The notes under the pieces are model-generated. The model did no database searches. It was not told the DNA's origin and was given only the letters and a program-made list of their open reading frames with translations. A DNA stretch of 64,000 nt from Eunapius fragilis. Lineage: Eukaryota; Porifera; Demospongiae; Spongillida; Spongillidae. The stretch lies in assembly GCA_963681505.1 (NCBI GenBank), contig OY811973.1:7744857-7808856 (forward strand), in the 5' to 3' direction. Position 1 is the first letter of the stretch, and each line of letters opens with the position of its first letter. The position numbers were made by a program, and so were the translations under genes. Positions 16,049 to 57,472 of the stretch are shown one piece after another.

Positions 16049-16135
16049 CTAGTTGAAGCATGCAGGACTGGAGATGTGAGAGCTGTCCAACAGCTCCTGT
16101 CACGTGATGTTGGTGTGAATGTGGTGTATGACGGG
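16049..16135 (+). CDS. Ankyrin exon 1 of the ankyrin-coiled coil-TKL kinase gene
   Basis: After a pyrimidine-containing 3' splice site (tttgtccactacag) an 87-bp exon encodes LVEACRTGDVRAVQQLLSRD then VGVNVVYDG. This is a typical first ankyrin repeat (L-x-x-A-x-x-G-D-x-x-x-V-x-x-L-L). It ends in GGG followed by GTACGT. The exon is phase 0 at both ends and joins naturally to any of the cassette exons downstream (YDG + YTPL). The start codon and any upstream exon were not found. Confidence 0.8.
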
Positions 16136-16630
16136 GTACGTACATGTGTATGTTGAGTATGGGGAGGTATGTACATGTGTATGTAGAGTATGAGGAGGTA
16201 TGTACATGTGTATGTTGAGTATGGGGAGGTATGTACATGTGTATGTTGAGTATGGGGAGGTATGTACATGTGTATGTTGAGTATGGGGAGGTATGTACAT
16301 GTGTATGTTGAGTATGAGGAGGTATGTACATGTGTATGTTGAGTATGGGGAGGTATGTACATGTGTATGTTGAGTATGGGGAGGTATGTACGTGTGTATG
16401 TTGAGTATGGGGAGGTATGTACATGTGTATGTTGGGTATGGGGAGGTATGTACATGTGTATGTTGAGTATGGGGAGGTATGTACATGTGTATGTTGGGTA
16501 TGGGGAGGTATGTACATGTGTATGTTGAGTATGGGGAGGTATGTACATGTGTATGTTGGGTATGGGGAGGTATGTACATGTGTATGTTGGGTATGGGGAG
16601 GTATGTACATGTGTATGTTGAATATGGGGA
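16136..16630. repeat. 31-bp minisatellite that begins at a 5' splice site
   Basis: About 16 units of gtatgtacatgtgtatgttg plus agtatggggag. The array starts at the splice donor of the ankyrin exon ending at 16135, and every unit contains GAG followed by GTATGT, a good 5' splice-site match. Confidence 0.95.
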
Positions 16631-17571
16631 GGTCTATACATTTTGATGGCTGTGTAGTTTTATACATGTAACCTTTTATACTACTGTAGGGCAGTTAGTA
16701 ATACCATACATTTAATGCTATCATAATCATGTCAATGTTGGTCATTTTATTTTATAACTGAACTTGTTTTCTTCAAAACAAACATGGAGCTTATTACTGC
16801 AACCAGATCTTTGTTCATTGAACATATAATTGTCAATTAATTGATGCATCATAAGGATAGGAGAGTGCTAAATAACCCTGAGGGGGAACATACCCTGGGC
16901 AAAGCCTCACTTCCATTCAACCTTCAGTCAAACACACAGTTTTGCGTTTAGTTCTGTGTCATAACAGAGAACAAAAATACTTGTGCCCACATCTCCCACT
17001 CCGTCACAACTGTTATTTGCCACCATTTTTCTTCTTCTTCTCCTTCTCCTTCCTTCCACCACGAAGAACTCTAGCTAGAAACGTTTTCCAAGAACCTTAA
17101 CAGCACCAATCGCTTCAGCATATATCCGGATTTTACTATACATGACCCATTGGGTGTAATCAAAAAGCGATTAGTAACTAATTTGGCATACACAGCTTGA
17201 TAAACAAAGCAATCTTGTACCCAGACCATACATCTACTACGTTATTCACCTACATATGGTAACCCACACCTACCCTTTACGTTGGTTATTAATAGCCATC
17301 TGTTTGAAGAAATCAACAAGGCTTAAGCCCACAAGCAAAGCGAATCCCATAAAGATGGTGTCAGCTACGAGGCTGATCCAGGATAGAAGGACTATGAGCG
17401 TGACAGTTATGAGGCTGATCTGCTTCATCAGCTATGTACATGTAAAAGTTAAAACTGTCTGATTTGCTAATACAAGACCCAGATGTCCAGTCCCAAAAGA
17501 TGACACACTGCCGTAGGGGTCTTATTTCAAAATTGTGTAGATGCTATCTCATCTCATGATGAAATTAGAAC

Positions 17572-18068: not shown

Positions 18069-18970
18069 GTGAGTGAAGTAGGGTGTGGTGAGGTACGAAC
18101 AAGCAGAAGAAGGGTTGATCCGAATACATTGTATTCATTGTCTTGCATCAATCCAAGGTGTTAACTATATAAATAATTTTTATGTAGAGTGGTTTAGTGG
18201 TCTAAAGGTAGCAATGGGGAGGTGGTGACTGCATATCGTTGTATATCAGGTTTTTAACTACTTTATTATGTATAACTAGGTACATGTACATGTACTGGGC
18301 TTATATGCTATGTATATAAGGCCATAACAACACTTCTACCCTGGAGGGGCTTTTCTGCCTTTTCTGCCTTCTGCCATGCGTATTTGTCTGCTCCTCACAC
18401 ATGAGTATTTGACTTCCTCACATCACCATCTGTATGAATATTGTTTCTTTACTGTATCTGTGTTCTGCCATTTGTTGCAATAGGTAGGCAATCTCCTGAG
18501 TGCTACACTACCATTGACTTCCAATCCTCTAGGTCATCTAATATTCTTGTTGAAAACGTGCTTGTTCAATGAGCTAATTTTGTGTGAGGTCTACGTCTGG
18601 CCTGAATGGTTGTGATAAGCAGTGCAATATGGGATAGTTTGAGACCTCCATGGGGCACTTGCTAGATTTCCATCAGTTAACCATTTGGGGAGGGGGGCTT
18701 CACATGGGTGACTTCTACCCTGACCTAACAACAACTTTTATTACCTTGAACGACATCTAAGGGAGAGTACAACACTAGTTCATGTCTTGACAATTTCTCT
18801 TTCTTTTCATTATGTGAATCCCACTCAGCCATGTACATTTAAAAGTTAAAACTGTCCGATTTGCTAATACAAGACCCAGATGTCCAGTTCCAAAAGATGA
18901 CGCACTGCCGTAGGGGTCTTATTTCAAAATTGTGTACATGCTATCTTATCTCATAATGAAATCATGAAAC

Positions 18971-19602: not shown

Positions 19603-21960
19603 GTGAGTGATGTATGATGTGGTGAAGTACTAACAAGCAGAAGGGTTGATCCAAATACATTGTATTCATTGTCTTGCATCAATGCAGGGTGTTAACTAAA
19701 TATTTCTTCCATATTGTCTAGTCCATGCCATGTACATGTACATGCTGGGGGTATACAACACTAATTGTATTTGTAATGAGGGGAGTAGTTTGTATGTAGA
19801 GGGATCTAAAAGTAGTCATGGGGAGGTGGTGACTACAGGTTCATTAATAACAGGCTGCATAATTACATCAATCCTATATTTGTTCATGCAATACATGTAC
19901 ATGTATGTGAGTAGTGAAATTATTATATTTATATTAATGGACTTAGTGTTAAATTATACCCGAGTGTCAATGTATACTTGTAAATAGCCTTTGTTTCTTT
20001 CCTGCATATGACATCTGTGAATTTCACTCATACATCATCAGCGGGTAAGTTATGCATGTGGACAGGATTTGTAGTGATGATTGAGTAGCTTTCATTTAGA
20101 GTGTATGTAAAAACCAAGAAACCAGTAAAAGAATTTGCATATTGATAACGTTCGTATGTACATGTACTGTTTGGACCTGATTATAACCATCACTAAGCTG
20201 ATAGAACAGACATGTGTAATCGTCATGTCAATAATTTCTTTGTTGGACTGTCCCGTGCTCAGCCCTTTTCAGCTGGACATTAGGGTCCATAATTAGACTA
20301 TACCATAAACCAATGAAATCCATAGTGCCTTGATGCACCACCACCTCATTATAATGGTGCTTTTTGAAGGAGCTGTATCACGTTCATTTTATCATCAAAT
20401 GCCTGTTACACCATCTAATGGAGTATTGTCGTAGTAGTTACTGTACCATATGCACACATCATATTGCTATTCATGTTTTTATGCTTAAGAACATTGATCT
20501 ACACATTGACAATTTCACTTTCTTTTCATTATGTGAATCCCAATCATCCATCATCAGGAGGTAAGTTATGCATGTGGACAGGATTTGTATTGATGATTGA
20601 GTAACTTTCGTTTAGAGTGCTCATACAGTATGTTGAAACAAAGAAACCAGTAAATAAATAAATTTGCTTATGGGAATGTACTACTTTGACCATCACCAAG
20701 CCTGCAGATGATGACAGAACAGACATGTCTAATCGTCATGTATTAATGTGTTAATAATTTCTTTGTTCTACTATCCTGTGCACAGCCCTTTTCAGCTTGG
20801 ACATTAGGGTCCATAATTAGACTATACCATAAACCAACAAAATCGATTGTGCCTTGATGCACCACCACCTCATTATGGGGAGCTGATACTATTCCATGTG
20901 TGCACTCATCATATTGCAATCCATGTTTTTATGCTAGAGAACATTGGTCTACACATTAACAATTTCTTTTTCTTTTCATTATGTGAATCCCACTCATCCA
21001 TCATCAGGTGGTAAGTTATGTACGTGAATAGGATTTGTACTGATGATTGAGTAGCTTTCATTTGCAATGCTCAAAAAGTATGTTAGAACAAAGAAATCAG
21101 TTTAAATAAATTTGCTTACGGTAATGTCCATAATTAGACTATACCATAAACCAACAAAATCCATTGTGCCTTGATGCACCACCACCTCATTATAATGGTG
21201 CTTTTTGAAGGAGCTGTATCACGTTCATTTTATCATCAAATGCCTCTTACACCATCACATTTAAATGGAGTATCATCGTAGTAGTTACTATACCATATGT
21301 GCACTCATCATATTGCAATCCAAGTTTTTATGCTAGAGAACATTGGTCAACACATTAACAATTTCTCTTTCTTTTCATTATGTGAATCTCACTCATCTAT
21401 CATCAGGTGGTAAGTTATGCATGTCGACAGTATTTGAATTGATGATTGAGTAGTTTGTATGTAGAGTGGTCTAAAAGTAATCAATCATAATGCTTTTATC
21501 TGTAAAAATTCATTTGGATAACGGCCAGTCCAGATCTATGTTTATAGATACATGACAGCAGTAAGGTTGTGCTATGAACACCATGTAAGGTGTGGTGAAG
21601 TATTAAAAGTGTGGGTTATCCAAGTAGAATGTATCAAGGCAAAATTAAATGTTTACTAGTAGTGCTTAAGTATTTCTTCCATATTGTCTAGTCCATACCA
21701 TGTACATGTACATGCTGGGGGTATATAACTTTAGTGGTCAACATATTAACAATTTCTCTTTCTTGTCATTATGTGAATCCCACTCATCCATCATCAGGGG
21801 GTAAGTTATGCATGTGGACAGTATTTGTATTGATGATTGAGTATCTTTCATTTGGAGTGCTCAAAAAGTATGTTGAACCCAAGAAACCAGTAAACACGTT
21901 TGCTAAGATATGTACTGCTTTGACTTGCATATAACCATCACCAAGCCTGCAGATATAACT

Positions 21961-22659
21961 AAAGTCTGCGACAGCATCGAGGAAGTATATTGCGATTTGA
22001 CGGTCAAATTAAGTGGCAATATCGCGGTCCATGCACTAATAGAGAGCTTTTTATCTGCAATGTTGAAGTGAAGTTATCCCCTGATTTTATTACTTTTTAG
22101 GGCTTCAATTTTTCAAGTTAAGAAAGGGTTAATTATTTAAATTCAATATTAAGGACTTAATTTGGTACCGTGTTGATTTTTTTTCACTGAAATCGGTTTC
22201 TATGGGATATGAGACATCCAACACAACTTTTCCCATAATTTTTCTATGTTCCGTTCTTAAACTACACTGTATCTTAAGTTGTTTCACTATTCTACATGGA
22301 TAAGTGAGTTTAATGTATTCATAGTTAGTTTAGCAACCGCAGTTTAGGAACGTGTATCTTAAGATCGCAACGCAGAAAAAATATACTAAAAGTTGTTTTG
22401 GATGTCTCGTATCCCACAGAAACCGATTCCAGTGGGAAAAAATCAACGCAGTACGAAATTAAGTCCTAAAAATGGAATTTAAATATTTATACCTTTTTTA
22501 ACTTGAAAATTTAAAGCCGTAAAAAGTTATAAAATCAGGGAAAAACTTCACTTCATCATTGCAGATAAAAAAGCTCTCTACTAGTGCGTGGACTGCGATA
22601 TTGCCGCTTAATTTCACCGCCAAATCGTAATATACTTCCTCGATGCTGTCGCGGACTTT
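21961..22659. mobile_element. 699-bp foldback element
   Basis: Long inverted arms start aaagtctgcgacagcatcga and end in the complement (tcgatgctgtcgcggacttt). Pairing extends inward for over 200 bp per side with substitutions. No open frame lies inside. It interrupts the series of intron blocks holding the candidate microexons. Confidence 0.8.
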
Positions 22660-23491
22660 AATATGTGTATGTTTCTTTGTGGGACTGTAGCCCTTTTCAG
22701 CTGGACATTAGGGTCCATATTTACAACTATACCATAAACCAAAAAAATCCATTGTCCTTGATACACCACCACCTCATTATAATGGTGCTTGTTTTAAGGA
22801 GCTGATACTATACCATACATGTATGTGCACTCATCGTATTGCAATCTATGCTAGAGAACATTGGTCTACACATTAACAATTTCTTTTTCTTTTCATTATG
22901 TGAATCTCACTCATCCATTATCAGGAGGTAAGTTATGCATGTGGACAGGATTTGTATTGATGATTGAGTAGCTTTCATTTGGAGTGCTCATAGAACAAAG
23001 ACATCAGTAAAAAAAATTTGCTTAAGGATTACATACGTATGTACTGCTTTGACCTTCACCAAGCCTGCAGATGATGATAGAACAGACATGTGTAATTGTC
23101 ATGTATTAATGTGTTAATAATTTTTTTGTTGGACTGTCCTGTGCTCAGCCCTTTCAGTTAGACATTAATAGAGGATAATGAGGACACCAGTGGCTATACA
23201 CATGCTGCATGCATCGGGCTTGGCCTCCATACATGACTGTCCCAGTGAGATTTTGGTGATAACAAAATAATAGTTGCTATCGTAAGGATATGATAGTCTG
23301 GCAGTATTAATGAGACCAAAGAATTAGTTTTGTCCTCATGCTTGTACTTTCCATGCTTATTGCTACTAGGTTTTGTTCCATCTGATGGGAATGTGAACAA
23401 CAATCAGTGCATTGTTTAATTCCACATGTTGTCACCTCATTGATGCATGTGTATTGCACTGCTTTTCTTTACCCTCACCTCCCATATGTAG

Positions 23492-23575
23492 AGGACACCA
23501 CTGTATGTGGCAGCTGAAAATGGTCATACAGCTGTAGTGGAGATCCTTGTAAAGGCAGGAGCTGATTTGAACAAA
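23492..23575 (+). CDS. Ankyrin cassette exon C3
   Basis: An 84-bp phase-0 exon encoding RTPLYVAAENGHTAVVEILV then KAGADLNK, between TGTAG and GTGAGTG. It differs from C1/C2 at the first residue (R), in AEN for AGN, and in DLN for DVN. The unit 23.17-24.26 kb, including the downstream element X sequence, is repeated around C4. Confidence 0.82.
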
Positions 23576-24089
23576 GTGAGTGATGTATGATGTGGTGAAG
23601 TACTAACAAGCAGAAGAAGGGTGGATACATTGTATTGATTGTCTTGCATCAATCCAAGGTGTTAACTAAATATTTTTTCCATATTGTCAGGGTCGATGCC
23701 ATGTATATGTGCATGCTGGGGATATACAACACTAGTGGTATTTGTAATTAGGAGAGTAGAGTGGTCTAAAAGTAGTAATGGTGAGGTGGTGACTGCACAT
23801 CAACTGCTGCTATGGGAAGAACGGACATGTTTATTCATGTGTTAATAACATTTTTATGGGAATGTCATGTGCAAGAAAGAATATTACATGAATTAGTTCA
23901 TGTTTGTGGACAGTCATGATTGTGTGCTTTCTAGAATGGTCTAAAAGTAGCAATGTGGAGGTGGTGACTATCATCAGGTTCAGAAAGAACAGGCTACTTA
24001 ATTATGATTATGAATGTGATTGTATTTACTTTTTTAATCAACTCATTGAATATGGCGTCGAGTAGGAGCTACTGTATATTATAAAATAT

Positions 24090-24260
24090 GGGTCAGTTCA
24101 TGAGAAAATGAGCCTTCGCTATATTTTATAAAAGTTATAAAAATGACTCACGTTTGAATCGCTATAACTTCGGAACGGTACATGCTATTGACTTCCTATT
24201 TTCAACACTTCATACTACACCATTTCTATAAGGTAAAATAGATTTTGGGGTCTTGCATCC
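24090..24260. repeat. Element X end, inverted partner at 27950-28130
   Basis: About 170 bp (with ttcaacacttcatactacac and agattttggggtcttg). It is found inverted at 27950-28130 and, more diverged, in plus orientation at about 31310-31500, 37690-37990 and 40330-40560, and in minus orientation at 48470-48800. It probably marks ends of a DNA transposon family. No transposase was found between the 24.1 and 28.1 kb copies. Confidence 0.7.
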
Positions 24261-24861
24261 CATGGTCTTCTCTGCATGGTCATGTCCAAAGTCTTCCATG
24301 TCACTGATGTGGATGTGTTTTTCACACATGTAACTGGACTGTGTGTTGCATGCATTGGACTGGCCCCTGTGAGGCTCCACTATACATGTCCCGTATACTA
24401 TTCACTGTACTCAAATTCAGAGTGTGCTTCATTGGGAGGGTTTTAAGGACTCCTCTATTTCAGCTGATAGTGGTCATGAAAGAGTTGGAATGATGTGGGG
24501 GGGGGGGGGGGGGGCTCAAATCTCATGTCCCCGTCAATGGTACTCTTTTTTATTGGCAGTGCTTACTAAGTTACATGCTGGTGGTGCTCTTGTATATATA
24601 CCTACATACTAGTCCTGAAGCTTCATATCTGTTGTGTAAGTAAATACCAGCTCAGTGCATGTATATCCATGGGTAAATAGAAGCCATGTCAGTGAATGCT
24701 CTCTGTTCTACAGAGGCCCAGTCTTTCCAAATCTCAAATCTTTCAGATAGGCTAGCAATAATACATGTATTCACTGCCACTATATGCAAGGCTTCCATCT
24801 GTCTACAAGTAGCTTGCCTACACATAAAATCCTCCAAGAGAGGTACCAATGCTACAAGCAC

Positions 24862-24885
24862 ACACACACACACACGCACACACGC

Positions 24886-24955
<70 letters not shown>

Positions 24956-25704
24956 CGGTGGTCTTGACAAAGCTTAGCAAGCTGTGTCCGGACCTCCACC
25001 AGTGGACACCTTGCTAGCTCCATCACATCCCCTTCATGTTGGGACACCCACACCACTACAAGGCCACCAATGGATGCTTGCTACTTGCTCCACCACATCA
25101 GGGCTTCCATCTCCACCAGTAGGGATTCCCCACCCTCTTCACAGCAAGTGCCCTTGTCCTCCACATCAGGGCACCCCCTCTTCCATAGATGTCACACTTC
25201 TATGTAGGGATCTCCTTCCCCCCTTTTTACCATTCCATCCAGGAGACACCCCCCCCCCCTCCTCCACACAGTATACCCTCCTAAACTGTGTAACACCACT
25301 AATGGTCTTAGTTCAAAATACTCTTGATTAAATATAGTTACCGGTATGTTCTATCTCATGACGAAAAAAAAACTGATGGAACAAGTAATAAAAAACATTA
25401 TTTGTGAGAAAGTTGGTATATAGGATTGAAAGGCAATAGTGGTGTAAAAAGGAAATAATATGGGAATAGTCCTACATTTGTAGGACATTATGTTGTTCAA
25501 CTGTGTGCGTATTACATTACCCCTTATTAGTAGATCCTTGTTTCCTTCCTTTTTGCCATCCAATATGCCATCAACTTTCTCATAGAGAATGTCTTTATTA
25601 CTTGTATGCAAGGCTTCCATCTCTAGGTGAGCAGATCTAGAAGTAGCTTGTCAACACATCACAAAAATAAATTGCAAATCCTCCAAGAAAGAAAGGTTCC
25701 AATG

Positions 25705-25792
<88 letters not shown>

Positions 25793-26161
25793 ATTCCAAT
25801 GCTACTTAGGATTAGTGGTTCTGGTGAGGATGGCTGTCAGGTTTGCTACACATATGACCAAATGCAAAAGGCTATGGAAGTCACCTGTAACGTGTTTGGA
25901 AGCGGCACGTACTGCCCCAGATCCAAAAACATACATAAAAAAGACACCAAGTGCTCTGATCCTCAGGTGGGTATGTGACCATATGTCTCATTGATTGCAG
26001 AGTCTTAAACACAAAGGCATTAGCCAATCTATTTGCCACCATCTCATGTAAATCAACATTCCATGGGTGACTTTCATGGGTGGCTTTGCATCTGGTCATA
26101 GCAAGCAGACAGTCATACCCACCAGAACCACTAATTCTAAACTTGTAGCACTGGTTTGTGT

Positions 26162-26207
<46 letters not shown>

Positions 26208-26238
26208 ATAGCTATACATGGGCCCCTTCTAAGTGTGT

Positions 26239-26290
<52 letters not shown>
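24862..26290. repeat. Cluster of CA/TG microsatellites
   Basis: (CA)n at about 24862-24953 and 25707-25788, and (TG)n at about 26157-26202 and 26236-26287. G runs of 18 bases lie at 24497-24514 and 26744-26761. Apart from a MITE-A copy (25383-25605), the stretch 24.26-27.49 kb shows no exon. Confidence 0.9.
25383..25605. mobile_element. Palindromic MITE-A copy, diverged
   Basis: Arms begin with the aacaagtaataaaaaacatt type of end and the matching gaatgtctttattacttgt. The interior is shortened relative to the 34392 copy. Confidence 0.65.
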
Positions 26291-27490
26291 ATAGCAGTAT
26301 ACATGGGCACCTTCTAGGAATCTGTGCTATTTATCCTTTGTGATATTACTTGTAAATCCACCACTCTGTAAGAGGGACTTTAGTAGACCTACTTTTACCT
26401 GGTATATAAGCCCGGCAGGAATATTATACCTGCTGTATCCCAAAAGATAAAGATCAGGGCCCTGGGAATTTTATATAACAAAGGAAGGTAATAAATAGTA
26501 AGTCCTAAGTCTTTTTAAACCTCTCAATGGTACACACCCAGAGCTTCAGCGTATATAGTGATTGGCATGGGATAGTTGTGAGTGTTGTGTGTATGAGTGT
26601 GTGAGTGTGTAAATGGATGCATGTAAAGGAATATGGGACATGAGGCATGGTATGTCATGATGTGGCAGGTACTGTGAGACAGGAACAAATTGTCCAGTAC
26701 ATACAACACATTAATCCAGTACATGCAACCATTGGGGATAGTAGGGGGGGGGGGGGGGGGGTGGGATGCCCTTCCTCTGAAAAAAGTGTTGGGGCATTTG
26801 CCCCCATGCTCTTATACCACTATGTATACAACACACAATCCAGTTACACATCAGTCTGAATATAAATTGTTGGGAAAGAGGGTTGTATAGTAGGCCAGTG
26901 TAACCGAAAGACATAGAAAAAAAAGTTCAAATGGACAAATCTTATGAGTGAATCCATGTAGCACACAACATAACAATTTACAGGGTGTACAGCAAGGGGA
27001 AAAGAATAGTGTCTTATGGTGGAAAGAGTGTGTATATGATCTCTGGTATAGGCCGGACATGAGACGTGTGTTCATGGGTGTGTATGAGTGTGCCAGCCAT
27101 GCAGATTAATTGAAAAACGGTGGGCGTTTAAAATATATGTGCCAGCAGAACGCAAATCTCGACAATAAGGAAGGGTTACATGTGTTCCAGCCTAGCTGCG
27201 CTGCATGTGTCTTTAACTCGACCACGCCTCTCCCATAGCCTAGCTGATACACCGTGCACTATATATCATGGCTCTGACGTACTGTTATAGGTTGTGCGCC
27301 TATAAATGGCCACGCAATGAGTGGCACCCAAAGAGTATACGACAGGGGCACGATTTCTACATAATGTTGTGCGCGCGTATCGGTACTGGTGGTACGTACC
27401 GTGTTTTGTATGGTGATGGTAGCTGAATCCCACGCATTTCTATCGCTTAACGAATCTTGATCGCTATAGAAGAGAACCACTGACGTTTGT

Positions 27491-27662
27491 CACAGGAAAA
27501 AAAATCGTGTTCCGGACCTTGGGTTTTACCCTATCGACCTTGGGATCTGTTCCATCAAATGTATTCACTGTTGTCTTAGGCACTTTGAATACGTTTGATG
27601 GAACAGATCCCAAGGTCGATAGGGTAAAACCCAAGGTCCGGAACACGATTTTTTCCCCTGTG
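27491..27662. mobile_element. Near-perfect palindromic element, about 172 bp
   Basis: Arms of about 77 bp (cacaggaaaaaaaatcgtgt ... and ...acacgattttttcccctgtg) are almost identical inverse complements with a 16-base centre. There is no coding content; the open frames on both strands reflect the symmetry. Confidence 0.85.
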
Positions 27663-29187
27663 CGTAAGAAGCTGGTACATCAGTACATAGTGGCATGGGC
27701 ACGGGAGGTTGTTGTATATATTCATGTGCTCGGAACCAGGTTAATGGCGCGAAATGAACGAGAAATGTGCAATTACTTTGCACAGCTGTATCTCCGTAAC
27801 GGATCAAGTAAAAGTTAACGAACAGGGCAAATCGATAAGCACAGGACCCCTCTGCGTATAAACCGAGTTTGAAGTTAATTGAGATGTCCTTCCGAAAGTT
27901 ATGGCTAGTTTGAACCCAAAGGGGTATCGGACGTTGCAACACTGGCACGAAGCTAATGCAAGACCCCAAAATCTATTTTACCTTATAGAAATGGTGTAGT
28001 ATGAAGTGTTGAAAATAGGAAGTCAATCGCGTTTATAGTTCCGAAGTTATAGCGATTCAAACGTGAGTCATTTTTATAACTTTTATAAAATATAGCGAAG
28101 GCTCATTTTCTCGTGAACTGACCGATTTCATCATGTGACCAAGTTACATTAAAAATGATGTCATTTACGTAAGCCGCCATCTTGGTGCACAGCTGGCGTA
28201 AGACCTTGTTGAGCATGCGATGATGTCTAATTCCGCTTCAGTTTTCTTTCAAAACTTGGACCCTGATGCTAAGGCACGATATATCAGCACTATTGCCATG
28301 CATCATTAACGGTTGATTTTGATTTGATTTTGATTTTGGGTTCCGAAGAGAAGTGCAAATAAGTTACAACCCCTGACCCTACTCGAGCGGAGAATGATCC
28401 ATAAGGACCGTAGTATATACCCATAGTGGTATATACCCTCAAATTACCCATGCATTGTGGTAATAAATGGCCTCATTCAGAGGTTGAAATTAAGCTATTA
28501 AGCTTACGATAAACGAGCGTTTGGCCTGTATAGGCGGGTGCTGTCAAAACGCATAATAATATGACGAATGCAAAACCCCTGATGAGTAGCGAGGCACATG
28601 GCCCCACGAAACGCGTAGGGTTTGATGTAATGGCTATTAAGTCAGAGCATTTACAAATTTGCGTTGTCCACATCCATTAAATTAAAGTTGATGCAGTCTC
28701 AAACAAGCTGGGCATGTAAGACAATGAAGGTAAAGGGCTATATCAAGCTCTGAAGAAACAATCAGCCCTCAAATCGGTAAGACAACTACTAAAATCAATC
28801 AAATCACTGATTGTCCCATCTCTCAGTATATCCATGATGACATGGTTAAAGCAAAGAACGTTGAACGGGAACTGGCAAGAAGCTTCTCCCCTACTCCAGG
28901 CCAAATCCCAAAGCCCCTATGAAGATGACTAAAAGGAGACTATGGCATGGGCCCTCCATTGCCGCGAGTAATTTTACTCGGTTGAGCCGCTCCCCCATTC
29001 TCGTTGCCAGGGTGCCGTTCAAGAGCTCTTTTCCTCCTTAATGGAGGAAACTAATAAAAGAGAACGGTAACCAACCTGGGTTAACTCGTCATACTGGGCA
29101 GCGGACTTTCCCGATACAAAGTGCATGGAACATACAGTCTACCCTCGATATAGTCCAGGCTACGGGAACCCCCAAAATATAGCGGAC

Positions 29188-29484
29188 CAGTAGCGTATCC
29201 AGGATTTCAGCGAGGGGGGCGCTTAAAGTCAGGCCCGATACGAGAAGGGTGGGGGGGGGGGGTGCTGTCGGTTTCTGGCCCGATACGAAAAATGGGGGGT
29301 TTGATCGCGTATCAGGAGGCCCAGGATATAGTACAGTTCATGCGTACGGGTATCAATAGGCAGCGCAAGCGTACAGCTATTATTATAAAACGCGGCCCGA
29401 AAAGTTATGAATTTATATATGGAAGGACCTATGGCCGAGGGGGGTGCTCAAGCACCCGGAGCACCCTCTCTGGATACGCCACTG
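29188..29484. mobile_element. Short hAT-like nonautonomous element
   Basis: Ends cagtagcgtatccagg and ctctggatacgccactg are inverted repeats of the CAGTGGCGTA type seen in hAT-like elements. It is 297 bp with no transposase. No clean target duplication was seen. Confidence 0.6.
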
Positions 29485-29510
29485 GCAGACTGTAGGACAA
29501 ACGGATATAG

Positions 29511-30388
29511 CAGTGGCGTAGGGAGGGAATAAAAAGTGCAGTGGCCAAAGTTCAGTGGCGGAGTCCCCCGGGGAGGTTGCGGGAGGGGGGCGCCCCTCCC
29601 ACCCAGCCAGGGGGTATGGGGGAGCGCTGTAAGCTCCCCCATGGGGGTCTGGGGCGGAGCCCCAGAAGCCAACGCTTCTTGCGTTGAAAAACACCCCCCA
29701 AAACGCAAAAACTGCACTTGTTTTTAAGTGAAAACATTATTCACTTTCGACGAGACTGGCATATCAAAACACTTTCGACGATCAAATCTTTATTTTTGCG
29801 TTTGGGACGACAAGGCTTCCGCTATATTGGGTGTAGAAGATGGCAATGCTAGCATTTTAAACACAGATTCCGTGTGGCACTTGCTAGATTCGTGTTGTGC
29901 AAACTTTCTTGTTGCATCTTTCCAATTCGAATAACCAGTTGAGAGAAACGCTAAATCCATATTAAGTGACCAGTTTAGTTTGTTGTGAGATCTTGCCTGC
30001 GCGCATGTAATACACAAAACAGCATCGCTACTTTCCAGATAGTGCAGCCAAGGCCTGATGGTTGAAAACTACGTTGCGCGGGTACCTGATTACCGAAGCT
30101 TCTTTTCGGAAAGGGATACAATCTTGGTTGGTGCGCCTGTTCAGGAAAGCTAGCTGAAGTCGCATGTAATTCACTAGCAGCAGCTGCTCAGCTGATTTGA
30201 ATTACATCAATACATGCTTGTATAATGAATAATTCACTAGCAGCAGCTGCTCAGCTGATTGAATTACATGCATCAATGCTGCCCGTATCATGAAAATTAT
30301 AAGTTAACCTATATTTTAATTTATTTTTCTCATATGAAATAGTGCAGCGGCCATGGCCGCTGCTGCCGCTGCAGCTCCTACGCCACTG
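29511..30388. mobile_element. hAT-like nonautonomous element, 878 bp
   Basis: Inverted ends cagtggcgtagg and cctacgccactg; flanks share tatag. Near its left end are three consecutive hairpins: 29618-29640 (gggggagc / gctccccc), 29649-29665 (ctggggc / gccccag) and a smaller one (caacgc / gcgttg) directly after. The same block occurs inverted in the element at 45235-46471. Confidence 0.65.
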
Positions 30389-30431
30389 TATAGTAGCGAT
30401 GCGAAGTTTAGCTTACGAACGGTTGGTTGGC

Positions 30432-30953
30432 TAGCCTCGTCCCCAGGCCGTCAATATTAAAAGTTAGGAAAAAAGACTGCCTGGTACCTATTGCCACTAT
30501 GTTAGTGCGCATGCGCTGGCCATTACCTGAAAAACACGTAATCGTATACTTACCTTGTAAACCGTTCCGTAAACTAACTCATATCAGTTCTGCCTCGTAA
30601 GGTTTTGTTTATTAAAAACATCGCACACGTGACGAAATTCATACACGCTACGCGTATACGTATACGATGTCAAAGTCTTGTAGGATTTGTGACAGTGTTT
30701 TGTCTCGTACACATTATGTCGCACTTTTTTCAAGGGAATCTTTGGCATCAGATCTTGCAAACAGGCTCAGCAAGGTTGCTGATGTCCCAGTGGCTTCCGA
30801 AGATGGTTTGCCATTGCTTCGCGCATAACGATTTACGGAATGGTTTACAAGGTAAGGATACGATCACGTGTTTTTCAGGTAATGGCCAGCGCATGCGCAC
30901 TAACATAGTGGCAATACGTCTTTTTTCATATTGACGGCCTGGGGACGAGGCAA
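30432..30953. mobile_element. 522-bp TIR element with 9-bp target duplication, carrying a small ORF
   Basis: Ends read TAGCCTCGTCCCCAGGCC on the left and the complement of TTGCCTCGTCCCCAGGCC on the right, with inverted repeats of about 140 bp. An exact 9-bp duplication TTGGTTGGC flanks it (30423-30431 and 30954-30962). Nine-base duplications suggest a Mutator/MULE-like mechanism (inference). Confidence 0.82.
30667..30828 (+). CDS. Small ORF with an N-terminal CxxC zinc-finger-like motif, inside a TIR element
   Basis: A 53-residue frame (MSKSCRICDSVLSRTHYVAL...) starts with CRIC and ends LPLLRA before TAA. The pattern resembles the first half of a Cys-pair zinc-binding domain, the second Cys pair being absent, so it is probably a truncated gene piece captured by the 522-bp element. 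Family recall only; a profile search would decide. Confidence 0.4.
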   Translation: MSKSCRICDSVLSRTHYVALFSRESLASDLANRLSKVADVPVASEDGLPLLRA

Positions 30954-32364
30954 TTGGTTGGCAAGAGAAAAATAACGAACATTATCGCGGATGGACTGTA
31001 TCGAAGCGGACACTATCGAGGGTAGATATTTGCTAGCGTCGTCTTTATAATGTCTTGCCTTCAAAGAGCAGCAAGGAAGCCGCCTCTTTGTCGTTCACTA
31101 AGCTCCCTTTCAGGCTCACCTCCAATGTGGTTGATAACAGCAGGTATTCGATAGAATGAGACATCTTTGTCACGGTCGGAACCCTTGTAAAACCCAATTA
31201 CTGCACACAATACTATAGTTACCGGTACAATCACTTCCTATGCACCAAGATGGCCGCCACCGGTATTACACGTGATCTAGTTAATTATCTTGTGACACAT
31301 GAAAAAGGTCTATTGTTATAAAAACGTATCATGTTTAAATAGCCACAATCTCCTAACGGTTATACTATACACTTCCTATTTTCAACACTTCATACTACAC
31401 CATTTCTGCATGTATGGTAAAAAAGATTTTGGGGTCTTGAATTTGTATCCATTGATCTATCCTGTTCGTTAAATTTTCCTTAATCCGTTACTGAGATATA
31501 GCTATCGTCTAGGGCACTTTCACATTGCGGGTCGCCCCTTTTCAAATCTTCTGTATCCGCCCCTGCCGTATGATGCATGTATGTTATTGTAAGGTCGTAA
31601 CCGTCATGTATTAATGGTTAATAATTTCTTTGTTGGACTGTACTGTGCTCAGCCCCTTTCAGCTGGACATTAGGGTCCATAATTAGACTATACCATAACC
31701 CAACAAAATCCATTGTGCCTTGATGCACCACCACCTCATTATAATGGTGCTTTTTGAAGGAGCTGTATCACGTTCATTTTATCATCAAATGCCTGTTACA
31801 TCACATTTAAATGGAGTATCGTCGTAGTAGTTACTATACCATATGTGCACTCATCATATTGCAATGCATGTTTTTATGTTAGAGAACATTGGTCTACACA
31901 TTGACAATTTATCTTTCTTTTCATTATGTGAATCCCACTCATCCATCATCAGGGGGTAAGTTGTGCATGTGGGCAGTTTTTGTATTGATGATTGAGTAGT
32001 TTGTATATAGAGTTGTCTATAACAGTAGCAATGGGGAGGTGGTGACTGCATATAAATCAATCATCAGGTTCATTAATAACAGGCTGCAAATCGCATATTT
32101 GTTCATGCAATACATGAATGTGAGTAGTAATTATTATATTTATATCCAAATGTACTTATACCCGAGTGTCTTGTATACTTGTTAATAGCCTTTGTTTCTT
32201 TCCTGCATATGACATCTGTGAATCCCACTCATCCATCATCAGTGGGTAAGTTATGCATGTGAACAGGATTTGTATTGATGATTGAGTAGCTTTCATTTAA
32301 GAGTGCTCAAAACGTATGTTAAAACAAAGAAACCGGTAAAAAAAAATTGCTTAATGTTTAATTT

Positions 32365-33405
32365 CCCGCAATCCTTATTTAATTAAGGATGGCCATTCTT
32401 AAATAAGGATGATGACCACTTTCTAAAAGAATGATGTAAACTTGGTGCTTTGTTTTATATTTGTGATTCACTAGATTCAAGATAGTGATACTACCACGAT
32501 TAAAACAGGTTTTGCTTGTTCAAAAACTGGTATTACAGTGTAAATACGGCAAAACCGCCATTTGCAACATAGTAGTGAGTTGAATTAACTCAAAGCAACG
32601 TATGGCAAGGGAGGATAGGCTTCTGGTAGCTCTAGGAGTAGAATGAACACTGTCAGATGGATATGTGGAACAATATCCACGGCGTCGACAATCTACACTC
32701 ATCGTCCAGCGAAGCGATTGCATACACTCGAAAGCGTCAAGCTAAGCAACCCTGCTTAGATATCGAGGGGAGCCACAGAAAGCGACGGATGTAGTTCCTG
32801 ACTATGGATGGATGACATACATGTAGGCCTATAGGTGACCAAAGCGGCAGCACTGTACGATTCGTCAAATGACAGTGACAGCGACAGCAAAAGTAGGCTT
32901 AGGCAATGTCTCCTCGAGTCTGATTAATTGGAGCTAAGCTCCACTAAGCTATAACACATATCGTATGCCAATTGGCAACGCTCCCTAGATTCTCTCGTAC
33001 CCCTACCCGTGCACCATTCTATATGGTACTCAATTATAGAACTAGAAAGCACACTGTTCAATGGAGCGGCGGCAGAACAACCGCATTCAGTGCACATGGT
33101 TTCAGTGAGGCTAGGGTACGTCCATGCTGGCGTTTGAGCAGAAGTGAGCATCTACATCAGCACACGTCATTATACAAATGCTTGATATTAATTTTGAAGT
33201 GTTATGGTGTAAATAAACATAACTATTTAACCACAAGTTATTTCTTCAACGAATCAGGTTGTGAGTATAGCTGGATCAACTGGCTATCAGAAAAAAAGAA
33301 AAAATCAAGGGTTTTAAAACCATTATGGTTTTTATGGTCAATAATCTCTACTGTTGTGATTCTTATTTAAGGATGGTGTCAATCCTTAAATAAGGATGTG
33401 CCACT
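32365..33405. mobile_element. TIR element with TTAAATAAGGA-type ends (Z1)
   Basis: Terminal pieces with paired atccttatttaa / ttaaataaggat motifs at about 32372-32415 and, inverted, 33360-33402. The interior has no recognisable transposase. Confidence 0.5.
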
Positions 33406-33547
33406 TCCTTCCTGTTTTACCACATGGACATTGATCACATTGACATCATTTAAAGTTTGTTATGGAGGCTAATCAGTATACAATTGACCATAATCTTTTT
33501 AAAAATCTTGCTTACTTGGTTAGCAAAAATATGCAATATAAAAGATG

Positions 33548-34345
33548 ATCCTTATTTAATCTTTATTCTCCAATCGTCCTTATTTAAGTCCATTGTCCTT
33601 AAAAAAGGACGAAATTCAAGTTTCATAAAAATCAGGTAAGATTGGTGGTTTAAATTATAGTACATTTAAACTGCATGCAGAATCTAGTTATTAATAGGTA
33701 TTTATTAGTAAATCTGGCCAAACAAGGGTGACTTTTAAATGGCGAAGCAGTCAATAAAGGCGGGTTTGCGTGTAGTAGGTAGGCTCAAAATGACAATGGG
33801 AAAGAAAGGAACGGTATTCAGGTACGTGGAAGTGTGCATGAGAAGAGATATGTTTCATAAAGTTAAACTGTTCTGTAAAATGTTGCTAAACACGGATGTC
33901 TAATTGAGGAGAGCAAGAATAAAAGCAAATAAATTGCAATATTATTAAAGTTTATTGCAAATATTTATATATTTTCTAAATGTAAATTGCTTCAGGTTTC
34001 TGAAAATTAATACATCCCAAATAGGAGACAACTAGATTTTAAATTATAGATAACTGAATCTAAACCGCTTGATTTTCGATGTCAAACTTATGAGTCTGCC
34101 ATCAAACCTATTACACTTTCAACTGCACTACTCAGCTACGTAATAGGTAGGTACACAAAAATTGTGTTTTAATGTAATGAAGGATAAACACAGCATGAAA
34201 AAACGTCTTTACTTTGCTAAAATACAGATCAGTCATTTCAAAAACATAGTGAAAACAGTTGTCCTTATTTAAGGACAAAAGGCGGTCTTAAATAAGGACG
34301 ATTAGCGGGAGAATAAAGGTTAAGGATAATGACATCCTTAAATAG
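33548..34345. mobile_element. Second TTAAATAAGGA-type element (Z2)
   Basis: The ends at 33548-33615 and 34255-34345 share tttattctcc, tcgtccttatttaag and gtccttaaa blocks in inverted order. There is no coding content. Confidence 0.5.
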
Positions 34346-34391
34346 GATTTTTCCCTGGATATTAAACAATAATGATAACATAAGTACATAC

Positions 34392-34676
34392 ACAAGTAAA
34401 TAAAAACATTCTCTACGAGAAAGTTGGTGGGATATAGGATTTGATTATGACATTGGTGGTGTAAAAAGCAAGGAAACAAGGTCTTATCAGAAGGGAAAAT
34501 GTCATAGTCCTATATTTAGCACATTTCTAGGACATGTGTTGTTTGTGTGCTAAATATAGGACTATGACATTTTCCCTTCTGATAAGACCTTGTTTCCTTG
34601 CTTTTTACACCACCAATGTCATAATCAAATCCTATATCCCACCAACTTTCTCGTAGAGAATGTTTTTATTTACTTG
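34392..34676. mobile_element. Palindromic MITE-A, best copy
   Basis: Arms of about 131 nt that look identical as inverse complements enclose a 22-nt loop (34524-34545). Ends read acaagtaaataaaaacattc and gaatgtttttatttacttgt. Other copies: 17572 (half), 18971, 25383, 35614 (half), about 40555 (decayed), 42254 (half), 47270 and 59013. The tight arm identity suggests recent activity or arm homogenisation. Confidence 0.9.
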
Positions 34677-34719
34677 TTTTCTTTATTTTTTTTCATACCC
34701 ATTTAATTATACAAGACAT

Positions 34720-34852
34720 TAGTCTCGTACCCAGACCGTCTATGACGTAAGCGATTATCGCTGTAAACAGTATAATCACTACGTCCATACGTATGGACGT
34801 AGTGTTTACAGCGATAATCGCTTACGTCATAGACGGTCTGGGTACGAGACTA
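34720..34852. mobile_element. 133-bp palindromic element with exact 9-bp target duplication
   Basis: Left end TAGTCTCGTACCCAGACCG and right end its exact complement. The centre holds a second palindrome (actacgtccat / atggacgtagt). ACAAGACAT is duplicated exactly at 34711-34719 and 34853-34861. Ends and duplication length match the 30432-30953 element, so both belong to one family. It sits 43 bp right of a MITE-A. Confidence 0.88.
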
Positions 34853-35512
34853 ACAAGACATAGGAGGCTGATAGTCGATTGTTTATCAAAGTATTATATT
34901 ATATAAAAGCGAGTCCTCCAGCCGATTCTGAAGCTATTGGTGAAATTTTCATCGCTTAGAAATGTTCCTGTCCTGAGTTATGCGTGGGCAAGAAGGAGAA
35001 GACGACCGCCCCTTGTTCCGAGACTGGGTACGAGGACGGGCAGTACACTCTTGTTCTCAACAACCACGCGGTTCAGCGACATGAAACAAAAACGAAACTA
35101 CTCATTTTTGACTTCTAGATCGATTGCTAAAACAAGCTACACGACCCGATCGTCGGGAGTGTTGTTACAGACGGGTCGCGTTTTTTAAAATGACATTCAT
35201 AGTCGGGGTCAAATCCTATATGGAAGTTTCTAACGAAACTTCCGATACTGCTTTGACCATCACAAACCTGCAGATGATGATAGAACAGACATGTGTAATC
35301 GTCATGTATTAATGTGTAAATCATTTCTTTGTTGGACTGTCCTGTGCTCAGCCCTTTTCAGCTGGACATTAGGGTCCATAATTAGACTATACCATAAACC
35401 AACAAAATCCATTGTGCCTTGATGCACCACCACCTCATTATAATGGTGCTTTTTGAAGGAGCTGTATCACGTTCATGTTATCATCAAATGCCTGTTACAC
35501 CATCACATCTGA

Positions 35513-35712
35513 ACCTGCGGCAGCAGGTTCAATATAGGATTGATTGAGGATTGATGAATGTCATTAATAAAAATACGTTCACTGAGTAATGGGCCTATTT
35601 TAATTTTCCAGTAAAATTTCTGTCACTCTTGTTTCTGTGCTTTTTACACCACCATTGGTCAATCCTATATACCAACAACTCTCTCGTTAGAGAATGTTTT
35701 TATTTACTTGTT
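35513..35712. mobile_element. gaacctgc hairpin element next to a half MITE-A
   Basis: The hairpin gaacctgcggcagcaggttc is followed by aatataggattgattgagga and, from 35614, a MITE-A right arm. The same hairpin type and the same MITE-A subtype occur side by side in the Gypsy element at 59013-59806, suggesting they move or recombine as a composite. Confidence 0.55.
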
Positions 35713-37070
35713 TAAATGGAGTATCATCGTAGTAGTTACTATACCATATGTGCACTCATCATATTGCAATCCAAGTTACGTTTGTATGCTAGGGAAAAAT
35801 ATAAAATACTTGTCTACACATCAACAATTTCTCTTTCCTTTCATTATGTGAATCGTACTTATCCATCATCAGTTGGTAAGTTATGCATGTGGATTGACGA
35901 TTAAATACCTTTTATGTAAAGTGGTTTAGTGGCCTAAAAGTAGCAATGGGGAGGTGGTGACTGCATGTCACTGAATATCACGTTATTAATTATTACAAAC
36001 TACTTTATTATGTATAACTATGTACATGTACTTACATGCAATTATGTTATGCATATAAGCCCATAACAGACATCCTCTCAGTACTACCCTGGAGGGGCTT
36101 ATCTCCTAGCACTCACCCTCCCACCACACTCCCTGTGCCTTGCATAGTTATCTGCCACACTTGCGTATTTGTCTGTTCCACACACTTGTGTATTTGGCTT
36201 CGTCACTAAACTGCCTGTACGAACTTGTACTCATCTGCGTATGCCATTTGCCGCTCTTTATCTCATTAAGAAATAAGTAGGCTGTTCTGCTCCCATGCTT
36301 ATTACACTCCCAATCCTCTAGGTCATGTAATATTCTTGTTGTACATACTTGTTCAATGAATGAGGTCTACATGTAAGTCTGGCCTGTATGGGAGTGCAAT
36401 ATGTGACAGTTTGAGACCATTAACAAACAGTATTATAAAACAATCCATTTGGAGGGTTCACATTGGTGGCTTCTACCCTGACCTAATAATGTTTATTTCT
36501 TTGATCATAATAAAAGTCACTTTGTTAGTGCTATGATAAAGGATGGTAGGGTGGGCTGCAATCACTTAGTCTATAGCCTTATGTGCCTCACATGTGAGGT
36601 ACTCCACCTCAAATTAATGGAGGCTTACGTCGTCACCATGGGCAACAGAGCCGACCTCGTGGAACAACTCCTCCAGCATGTCGCAGGGCCCGTCTGGTCT
36701 TTCTGCAATGTCTGGAGGCTGCACCAAGCTCCTAACCTCCTCTGACCCAGATGACACAGATATTGAGGACACCAGTCGCTATACACTTGCTGCATCCGGC
36801 TTGGCCTCCATATGTGACTGTCCCAGCGAGATTTGGGGATAACATATTATAGTTGCTATCGTACGGATATGATAGTCTGGCAGTATTAATGAAACCAAAG
36901 AATTGGTTTTGTCCTCATGCTTGTAGTTTCCATGCTCATTGCCATTAGATTTTGTTCCATCTGATGTGAAAGTGAACAACAATCAGTGCATTGTTTAATT
37001 TCACATGTTGTGACCTCATTGATGCATGTGTATTGCTCTGCTTTTCTTTACCCTCACCTCCCATATGTAG

Positions 37071-38685: not shown

Positions 38686-39211
38686 CTAGAATAGAGTCAA
38701 ATGTGTTTGTTCTCTTGTTGCCCCATACCTCTCCTTCCACATAAACTCATCGAGGTAACTTGGAAGCTGGTGGCTGTGAACTCCCTTCATGGTCTTGAAC
38801 CGTTTCTTTACCCGGTTCCAATAACTCTCAATGTTCTGGGTGTGAACCCCTGTTGCACTGTTGACAAACTCAACACTGTGGTTGACTGTCTGATGCTGTA
38901 GGTGAGGGATATCCCTTGTAATACGTGCATAGGCTGCCCACTCATCTGAGTGGACGATAGTTCCTGGTGCTGTGTGGGCTTGAATTATTGGCAGTAGTGT
39001 GGCAGCATCACGTGTATCCACCATCTGCATGTAGCCCAGAGATGGTGTTTTGGAAGTGTCGACCATCCCAAAGACCCACTGTTCATAGTCGACACGACTT
39101 CCCCTGTGATACTGAATAAGAATGTACATGTGTTTACAAAAGGGTCAGGCCAGTATGTGTGTTTGTGTGGTGTGTACCTTTGGCTTATGTTTAAAAAGAG
39201 ATTCATCAATT
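38686..39211 (-). CDS. Merlin (IS1595/ISXO2-type) DDE transposase, two-exon fragment
   Basis: Exon 38686-39111 encodes YHRGSRVDYEQWVFGMVDTS, then IVHSDEWAAYARI, VNHSVEFVN, HTQNIESYWNRVK, and ends after LPSYLDEFMWKERYG. An upstream piece ending at 39178 encodes IDESLFKHKPK before GTACAC, and joins through AG at 39112-39113. The three catalytic acidic residues (IDES, HSDE, NIESYW) are present. This is the DDE domain of the ISXO2-like family, used in animals by Merlin transposons. A TGA lies immediately before IDES and no N-terminal zinc region was found, so the copy is probably dead. It lies antisense in an intron of the ankyrin-kinase gene. Confidence 0.85.
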
Positions 39212-39630: not shown

Positions 39631-39735
39631 GCCTGTTATGGGTCCACTCCACTGCACATGGCTGCTGAGAAGGGTCACCATGAAGTGGTGGCAGTCCTGG
39701 TGGCATATAATGCTGACACTACCATAGAGAATAAG
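39631..39735 (+). CDS. Constant ankyrin exon
   Basis: A 105-bp, 35-codon phase-0 exon after TTCCTAG encodes ACYGSTPLHMAAEKGHHEVV then AVLVAYNADTTIENK, followed by GTACTC. It completes the loop begun by the cassette (ADVNK + ACYGSTPL) and contains a full canonical repeat. Confidence 0.88.
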
Positions 39736-40121: not shown

Positions 40122-40190
40122 GAAAAAAAGACGGCCTTTGATTTGATAGTAAATAAATATGAACAAGAGCTTTCTCTATTATTTTCAAAG
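40122..40190 (+). CDS. Ankyrin end-cap exon
   Basis: A 69-bp phase-0 exon after CATGTAG encodes EKKTAFDLIVNKYEQELSLL then FSK, with a strong donor GTAAGTAAGC. K-T-A-x-D-L is typical for a terminal ankyrin repeat. It joins IENK of the preceding exon smoothly. The next exon of the gene is about 9 kb downstream. Confidence 0.8.
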
Positions 40191-49199: not shown

Positions 49200-50864
49200 A
49201 CAAGTACTGGTGCACAAGTTCAGGGCACCAAAATCTGCACTGTAGCTGAGTTGAAATTGCTTACCACTCAAAAAAGAGTATCTGTTGCTGAAGAACGAGC
49301 AATGACTGCTGAAAGAAGAGCCATTATTGCAGAAGAGAGAGCTGCCACTGCTGAGGAAACTGCATCTGTCCTTGAGAAGACAGCTGCTAGTGCTGAAGAG
49401 AGAGCCATTGGAGCAGAAAGGAGAGCTACTAGTTGTGAAGAAAGTAAAAGAATTGCAGAAAGCAGAGCCACCATGTATGAAGAGAGAGCCATTTCAGCTG
49501 AGGCAAGAGCTGCATCAGCTGAACAGAGAGCCACTAAAGCTGTACAAAAAACCATTGCAGCTATGGCCAAAGCAACATCAGCTGAACAGAGAGCCACAAT
49601 AGCTGAAAAGGAGTGTGCTATCACAAAAGAACAATTGTCTGATGCTTTTAAACAAGTCACTGTGGCTGAAGAGAATGCCACAACAGCACAGAGGAGGGCC
49701 AGTATTGCAGAGGACAGAGCTACTGTTTCCAATAAGAAAGCCATTACAGATGAGAAGAGAGCAAATGTAGCAGAAGAACGAGCTACTGCAGCAGAGAAGA
49801 GGGCCTCTGTAGCAGAGGAGAGGGCCAAAGTAGCAGAAATGGAGGTTACTGCTGCTGTCATGAAGACAGCAGCTGCTGATACCAGAGCAAAAGGTTTGGA
49901 AGAGAGAACCAATCAAGCTGAAGATGCAGTGAAAACGTTGCAAGAAAGTGCATGCATATCTGATATCAGAATGGCAGAGCTTGTGCAAACAAATAGAGCT
50001 CTGGAGGACAGGGCCACAAGAGCAGAGCAGCAGATCCAGGACCTGACCATGCAGTGCAGACAGCTACAAGAGCAGCTAGACAAAGCCACTACACCATCGT
50101 GGCTTGTAAAGAAAGATGATATTGTTCTGACGGATAAAGAGCTAGGCAGAGGAGGATGGGGTGTGGTGAAGGTAGCAAGGTACTGTGGACTTGAAGTGGC
50201 TGCTAAGCTCCTTCATGGTGCAATCCTATCTCCTCACAATGTGCAGCTGTTCAAGAGAGAAATGAATATATCGGCACTGGTACGTCATCCAAACATACTA
50301 CTATTGATCGGAGCCACTTTGGATCAGCCATGTGTCATCCTCACAGAGCTGATGCACACCTCTCTAAGGGTAGTCATAGAGGATAAGGTGCTGAAAAAGG
50401 TAACCCTCTCCCATCAGCAAGTATCCACTATAGCCATTGATGTGGGTAGGGCCCTGAATTATCTGCATTTAATGAAACCAGATGCCATCATCCACAGAGA
50501 TGTAAGCAGCAGCAATGTGCTCCTTGATCCACTGGGAGGAGACATGTGGAAGGCCAAGTTGTCAGACTTTGGGTCATCCAACTTTGCACGTCAGGTGACC
50601 ACTGTGGGCCCTGGAAATTACAGCTATGCAGCTCCCGAGAGCTCAGATCCTTTCCTTCAATCTCCCCAAATGGATGTGTTTAGCTATGGCATTCTTCTGT
50701 TGGAAATGGCAAGTGGTCTGTTTCCAGAAGTGCAAAAGAGGCAAGATGTAATGAAAAGGCTCCAGTGGTCAGCAATGAAGACATTGATTGAGCAGTGCAC
50801 AGCAAGGAGTCCAAGTTATCGTCCTAACATTGCTGATGTACTTATGAAACTTCCTATAGCTTAG
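49200..50864 (+). CDS. Terminal exon: heptad coiled coil plus TKL-type protein kinase
   Basis: A single exon from AG at 49198-49199 (phase 0, matching 40190) to TAG ending at 50864. About 17 linker residues precede roughly 31 uninterrupted seven-residue units of the type AEERATA (about 217 residues), predicted to form one long coiled coil. A kinase domain of about 240 residues follows: glycine loop LGRGGWGVV, VAAK lysine, HRDVSSSNVLL catalytic loop, LSDFGSSNF, and YAAPES for APE. The SSSNVLL loop and DFGSSNF are typical of the ankyrin-linked TKL kinases expanded in sponges (family recall). All catalytic residues are present, so activity is expected. Likely Ser/Thr signalling kinase, with the ankyrin part binding a partner and the coiled coil promoting self-association (inference). 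Confidence 0.93.
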   Translation, partial: TSTGAQVQGTKICTVAELKLLTTQKRVSVAEERAMTAERRAIIAEERAATAEETASVLEKTAASAEERAIGAERRATSCEESKRIAESRATMYEERAISAEARAASAEQRATKAVQKTIAAMAKATSAEQRATIAEKECAITKEQLSDAFKQVTVAEENATTAQRRASIAEDRATVSNKKAITDEKRANVAEERATAAEKRASVAEERAKVAEMEVTAAVMKTAAADTRAKGLEERTNQAEDAVKTLQESACISDIRMAELVQTNRALEDRATRAEQQIQDLTMQCRQLQEQLDKATTPSWLVKKDDIVLTDKELGRGGWGVVKVARYCGLEVAAKLLHGAILSPHNVQLFKREMNISALVRHPNILLLIGATLDQPCVILTELMHTSLRVVIEDKVLKKVTLSHQQVSTIAIDVGRALNYLHLMKPDAIIHRDVSSSNVLLDPLGGDMWKAKLSDFGSSNFARQVTTVGPGNYSYAAPESSDPFLQSPQMDVFSYGILLLEMASGLFPEVQKRQDVMKRLQWSAMKTLIEQCTARSPSYRPNIADVLMKLPIA

Positions 50865-57281: not shown

Positions 57282-57472
57282 TGTAACGACCTGTGAGATC
57301 ATCGTCACCTTAGTCAGCTGGTCAATCAACACTCCAGTGCAAGTTTAAGCCTGCCTGTTCGAGAACATTCTTAGCTATATAATGATGTATATATATAGGA
57401 TGTGCATGAGATACAGAGTTAGAGTGTTTCTGTATGCTGGGTTCTCTGCCTATTAATATTGGTTTCGTTACA
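57282..57472 (+). repeat. 5' LTR of the Gypsy element
   Basis: TGTAAC...GTTACA, 191 bp, with a TATA-like run (tatataatgatgtatatata) in the middle that could act as promoter. Confidence 0.93.

Follow-up and report, generated by a model that had tools for sequence, protein, structure and literature searches.

Arrays of candidate one-codon exons in a clustered ankyrin-kinase gene family of the sponge Eunapius fragilis

Exons of only three nucleotides (nt) are known as single elements. Drosophila troponin T and mouse Ncam each contain such a microexon (PMC8042270), and exon 4d of honey bee elavl2 is another, which reads TAG (PMC8553928). In these cases, a three-base exon lies between standard splice sites and adds one residue, and the papers describe a single exon in each case, with no alternatives. 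In mutually exclusive clusters of the Dscam type, on the other hand, tandem homologous exons were duplicated together with their introns, and one and only one of them is included (PMC6071210). The present work concerns a 64,000-nt stretch of DNA (hereafter the window) of the sponge Eunapius fragilis (contig OY811973.1, positions 7,744,857 to 7,808,856 of the forward strand), in which nine short blocks, each resembling a complete exon of a single codon, are interspersed among the ankyrin exons of a predicted ankyrin-kinase gene. Such blocks share the length and the splice sites of the known 3-nt microexons and the tandem homology of the Dscam-type clusters. They differ from the former in forming an array, in never reading TAG, and in a fast codon change that the available parts of PMC8042270 and PMC8553928 do not describe, and from the latter in being one codon long and candidates from genomic DNA. 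It is probable that they represent translated one-codon exons, of which one is usually chosen, diversified by selection at a recognition surface. While 3-nt exons and mutually exclusive clusters are already known, an array of one-codon exons is apparently new; the original prediction had known of no such tandem array, and no description was found in our literature search either, which largely missed subscription papers.

The nine blocks and their triplets (cgg, gag, gtg, gtg, ggg, gag, ggg, tgg and ttg), as first proposed, were recovered by a pattern search. With up to two mismatches, CATCATCAGNNNGTAAGT matched the window nine times, always on the + strand (seven exact and two with one mismatch; starts at 20033, 20549, 20999, 21398, 21789, 22916, 31944, 32234 and 35864), against 0.17 matches expected by chance, and none of 100 shuffles reached nine. 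Homologous one-codon candidates thus stand in tandem within one gene. In the whole genome (219 Mb, 24 contigs), the exact pattern occurred in 188 copies (130 on the + and 58 on the - strand), and its backwards control gave no match. Every one of the 187 copies listed (100 of 101 plus 87 of 87) was found on contig C3, which also carries the window, between 4.64 and 8.17 Mb. The copies analysed below came from the window, the adjoining 200 kb and short stretches round the remaining copies, in which a profile search found 245 places once overlaps were removed; 198 of these had a recognisable core, and the other 47 were half-block fragments or had damaged or diverged cores. The short stretches had been picked by their exact core, and for core conservation only the window and the 200 kb were therefore considered.

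The spacer between acceptor and donor was 3 nt in 197 of the 198 recognisable cores and 2 nt in the remaining one, and a genome-wide pattern search for spacers of 0-2 nt gave a single match. This is the short stretch between acceptor and donor that characterizes a microexon. Derivation of the block from a longer exon was rejected, as spacers of 0-40 nt searched in the 200 kb were of 3 nt in 25 of 25 cases. Where the core did not guide selection, 35 of 42 full cores were perfect, and mismatches amounted to 9 of 630 core positions versus 7.3% in the near flanks. Orientation was likewise uniform: all 187 listed copies had the same strand as the kinase match nearest to them, and 157 lay at most 60 kb and 177 at most 100 kb upstream of a same-strand kinase match (the farthest at 393 kb). 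The first block followed the first cassette in all four genes in which exon 1 was located. A local hairpin of CATCATCAG with the downstream TGATGAT was no more stable than shuffles (mean z +0.70, in 60 of 195 blocks; docking and selector sites were not searched).

An acceptor and a donor standing nearly back to back, and a number of blocks that differs between genes, would also suit recursive or decoy splice sites, which would assist the removal of long introns or slow splicing down, with NNG being incidental and removed or seldom included. Recursive splice sites and RS-exons, as described in PMC6224609, resemble the blocks in that a donor lies close behind the acceptor and is re-created after the first splice. 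However, an acceptor abutting the donor, with an exon of 0 nt, is not what the blocks have; they hold three bases, and these change like a selected codon.

This change was seen in the first two bases of the triplet (NN). Across 196 copies, pairwise diversity at triplet bases 1, 2 and 3 was 0.58, 0.63 and 0.20, while at intron positions +7 to +40 it was mostly 0.05-0.15, with few higher columns, and further out 0.5 or more. Disjoint close pairs were used in order to avoid comparison with unrelated far flanks. In 45 pairs at most 5% apart, NN differed at 18 of 90 positions versus 116 of 7029 in the flanks (-100 to +77), about 12-fold (P=3e-14), and in 42 disjoint close pairs at 14 of 84 versus 336 of 18052 in the distant intron, taken 45-300 nt from the block, about ninefold (P=7e-10). 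In the same 42 pairs, the third base was near neutral (2 of 42), and the near flank, up to 45 nt, stayed below the far intron (27 of 2939), a slowing that recursive or decoy sites would also explain. At 10% divergence (60 pairs), NN differed at 33 of 120 positions versus 833 of 24562 in the far intron. On a tree built from the flanks, parsimony required 49 and 61 changes at NN and 16 at the third base, compared with a mean of 10 and a maximum of 34 for 155 flank columns; as these columns shaped the tree, it somewhat favours them. Equal rates at NN and in the flanks had been named beforehand as the outcome that would speak against one-residue exons, and the rates proved unequal. Change at the candidate codon bases exceeds the neutral yardstick, as is expected under diversifying selection. 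The blocks could alternatively be inert repeats, spread by gene duplication and never spliced, with NN as a mutation hotspot; the listed copies do all lie within one duplicated cluster, and near-identical long duplicate segments are present on C3, e.g., 7.26-7.30 and 8.13-8.17 Mb. It is hard to explain, however, how a hotspot would be confined to two bases and leave the third near neutral, with the splice sites held and TAG never made, and we regard this alternative as very improbable.

The composition of the triplets pointed in the same direction as their rate. Among the 197 three-base cores, GGG (51), TGG (34), GAG (27), TTG (20) and GTG (17) were common, followed by AGG (9), TTT (7), GAT, ATG and CGG (5 each), AAG and GAA (3 each), and GGT, TCT and GCG (2 each), whereas AAT, TCG, CAG, GGA and GGC occurred once each, the GGC copy having a broken donor. 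Together they specify 14 amino acids, and TAG, TAA and TGA were all absent; the 3-nt units would therefore keep the reading frame of the flanking phase 0 exons and add no stop. In 195 copies, T before A was expected 13.1 times under independence, and TAG did not occur. When the two bases were evolved separately on the flank tree, in a simple model that ignores gene conversion, TAG arose 11.7 times on average, and none of 1500 runs lacked it. No depletion was observed for the other bases before A (AA 4, expected 3.5; CA 1, expected 1.2; GA 35, expected 22.2). A TAG would also act as a competing acceptor, but AAG and CAG, which are acceptor-like as well, show no depletion, so that its absence points to the stop codon, with the caveat that only six copies begin with C. 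For bare recursive splice sites, which had been offered as the alternative, neutral NN should change like the distant intron; the ninefold excess and the missing TAG, of which about 12 were expected, speak against them, and recursive or decoy sites are considered unlikely. The third base, G in 175 of 196 copies and the preferred base at donor position -1, would suit yet another alternative, in which NN tunes splice strength (donor -3/-2, acceptor +1/+2) and selection diversifies site usage rather than an amino acid. CAG and AAG are donor consensus ends, and they should have the strongest effect, yet they are rare (1 and 3 of 197) whereas GAG is common; moreover, TAG only is missing, with AA and CA at their expected level. 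Tuning of this kind appears improbable.

The blocks belong to a gene for which one model was built, comprising exon 1, four 84-nt ankyrin cassettes, a terminal ankyrin exon, a 69-nt exon, and an exon for a coiled coil and a kinase (Table 1); its exon joins are predictions from genomic DNA, and its ankyrin and kinase domains match Pfam. Phase 0, assigned beforehand to every exon of this gene, holds for the first seven, whose boundaries were checked. The distance from the cassette TPL to the terminal TPL is 32 residues, and one added codon would bring it to the canonical 33. Adding E where the cassette meets the terminal exon removed a one-residue gap from the displayed alignments with Ankyrin-1 and the DARPin 6mol_A, and among the 18 Ankyrin-1 and DARPin domain alignments listed for both versions, 15 scored higher, one tied and two scored lower. 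Distinct PDB sequences matched by phmmer numbered 457, 481 and 453 with none, one and two added residues, and the Ankyrin-1 whole-chain totals were 299.8, 327 and 293.4, respectively. The added residue sits at the 6mol_A column that reads S, Q, V, V, T, S, Y, presumably one of the randomised DARPin positions. In DARPin libraries, surface positions are randomised (PMC8683736).

It is also conceivable that the one-codon exons are translated but that several are strung together in a transcript by successive splicing, so that loop length varies as well. The donor re-created by each block could join the next block, and two, three or six extra residues are compatible with the Pfam scores. Nevertheless, phmmer matches were fewer with two residues than with one, the number of blocks between cassettes varies widely (0 to 6), and no rule of spacing would accommodate constitutive inclusion; the varying numbers were also the ground for rejecting the idea that every block is always included. 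We give this a small chance only, and infer that one-codon exons would be used one at a time.

Several observations weigh against translated one-codon exons. Their exon status is predicted from genomic sequence, block copies are not independent of each other, and the near flanks are somewhat conserved themselves. In the closest class of pairs (27 pairs, far p<=0.02), NN differed at 2 of 54 positions versus 136 of 12400, which was not significant (P=0.12), and GT was lost in 2 of the 42 unselected cores. No block lies between the last cassette of the window and the terminal exon. In P0155, a gene model of Ephydatia type, the sequence is ADVNK-SGYTTPLH and lacks the extra codon, although 3-nt exons are seldom called by gene finders; three protein searches, which returned generic ankyrin proteins, kinase pieces of one exon and a small number of models of Ephydatia type, but no transcript-based protein of E. 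fragilis, found the extra codon in none. With none, one and two added residues, whole-chain totals fell from 292.4 to 282.4 and 253.5 for 5le2_A and from 228.8 to 201.0 and 185.4 for 6mok_A. A spacing of 33 was not favoured by Pfam, since PF00023 scored 75.4, 75.8, 75.9, 77.2 and 77.0 bits with 0, 1, 2, 3 and 6 residues and PF12796 dropped from 73.7 to 71.2 bits as residues were added. With mixed totals and indifferent Pfam scores, the proposed step from 32 to 33 residues is plausible and not proven, being upheld by the domain alignments and match counts and not by the whole chains or Pfam. Taken together, the rates, the held length and splice sites, the absence of TAG and the sense orientation nonetheless favour translated one-codon exons.

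The cassettes themselves vary in a similar manner. Among 20 cassettes found by a sequence-pattern search, the 19 of 84 nt were compared: codon 1 showed eight amino acids, codons 9 and 28 five each, and no other codon more than three. Comparison of 10 close, non-disjoint pairs gave 31% differing bases in codons 1, 9 and 28, 1.7% in the remainder of the exon and 2.4% in the flanking intron; the one-codon exons would thus behave as the variable codons of the cassettes do. The remaining cassette (C3:8153822), of 87 nt, ends in VNFK instead of VNK and is one codon longer within the cassette. Among the best 150 of 901 cassette candidates in the genome, 123 lay on C3, and at least 14, 74-81% identical, formed a second group of cassette-like exons on C14 (3.19-3.36 Mb). 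Near-identical modules with few fast-changing recognition sites under diversifying selection are also known from the WD40 repeats of Podospora het-d/het-e (PMC12222747); there, it is the coding repeats of a single exon that vary, whereas in the sponge the variation resides in interspersed cassettes and one-codon exons.

Kinase-domain matches numbered at least 34 on C3 (4.71-8.76 Mb, 83-100% identity, among the best 150 of 244 genome candidates), three with internal stops and two pairs in a common reading frame. The nearest named proteins were those of Ephydatia muelleri (e.g., P0202), a member of a freshwater sponge genus, and protein models with the prefix Em are taken here as Ephydatia too. 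P0133 and P0155 combine ankyrin, coiled coil and kinase. The closest proteins overall reached 93-95% identity over the kinase part (ENA). In the window, 17 tandem copies of a 31-bp unit (16114-16641) start within the end of exon 1 and continue past its donor, and an ISXO2-like transposase domain (38686-39144, -) lies in the intron directly before the terminal ankyrin exon. Two long frames at 10285-14467 (-) contain integrase parts and DUF1759/DUF5641, as in long terminal repeat (LTR) retroelements, and we take this element to be BEL/Pao-like. Downstream of the kinase, an LTR retroelement with aspartyl protease, reverse transcriptase and integrase core occupies 57423-62909 (+), a transposase TNP-like RNase H domain lies at 55476-56054 (-), and the frame 53269-54294 had no Pfam match.

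Table 1. Predicted exons of the ankyrin-kinase gene and candidate one-codon exons in the window
Feature	Position	Strand	Remarks
Exon 1 of ankyrin region, LVEACRTGDVRAVQQLLSRDVGVNVVYDG	16049..16135	+	donor GTACGT, phase 0
Ankyrin cassette 1, 28 codons	17985..18068	+	phase 0
Truncated block	18767..18832	+	upstream half only, broken off before splice sites, no splice core
Ankyrin cassette 2, 28 codons	19519..19602	+	phase 0
Candidate exon CGG (R)	20042..20044	+	pattern match
Candidate exon GAG (E)	20558..20560	+	pattern match
Candidate exon GTG (V)	21008..21010	+	pattern match
Candidate exon GTG (V)	21407..21409	+	pattern match; acceptor TATCATCAG
Candidate exon GGG (G)	21798..21800	+	pattern match
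Candidate exon GAG (E)	22925..22927	+	pattern match; acceptor CATTATCAG
Ankyrin cassette 3, 28 codons	23492..23575	+	phase 0
Candidate exon GGG (G)	31953..31955	+	pattern match
Candidate exon TGG (W)	32243..32245	+	pattern match
Candidate exon TTG (L)	35873..35875	+	pattern match
Ankyrin cassette 4, 28 codons	37071..37154	+	phase 0
Terminal ankyrin exon, ACYGSTPLH..IENK	39631..39735	+	phase 0
Next exon, 69 nt, EKKTAFDLIVNKYEQELSLLFSK	40122..40190	+	phase 0
Coiled coil and protein kinase exon (Pkinase PF00069)	49200..50864	+	Pfam match for kinase

Under the reading as translated one-codon exons, each block would be a complete 3-nt exon, with the acceptor CATCATCAG, a codon NNG in phase 0 and the donor GTAAGT, situated in clustered ankyrin/coiled-coil/kinase genes, within the introns that separate the ankyrin cassettes from the terminal ankyrin exon. 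The cassette end ..AACAAA would first be joined to the acceptor of a block, adding NNG and re-creating a donor (NNG/GTAAGT), which would then be joined to the terminal exon, GCCTGT..; two successive splices are proposed because binding of a 3-nt exon on both sides at once is hardly possible. Usually, one codon per transcript would be added, occupying a variable position of an ankyrin loop, and positive selection would act on a binding surface diversified by cassettes and one-codon exons jointly, which may serve, e.g., in the recognition of self/non-self or of microbes. It is possible, although we hold it with less than even confidence, that these genes form a receptor-like ankyrin kinase repertoire of exchangeable cassettes and arrays of one-codon exons, in which splicing would select one residue at a hypervariable contact position; a variable segment could not be smaller.

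Microexons of the smallest sizes frequently escape detection (PMC8831610), and exons such as those proposed here would be overlooked by ordinary gene annotation. If the reading is true, alternative splicing would operate on units of a single amino acid, arrayed as alternatives and under strong positive selection, 3-nt exons would be shown to be a substrate for diversification, and the approximately 200 copies would provide a natural test bed for how the spliceosome handles tiny exons. It would also mean that an early-branching animal possesses a large, diversified recognition family.

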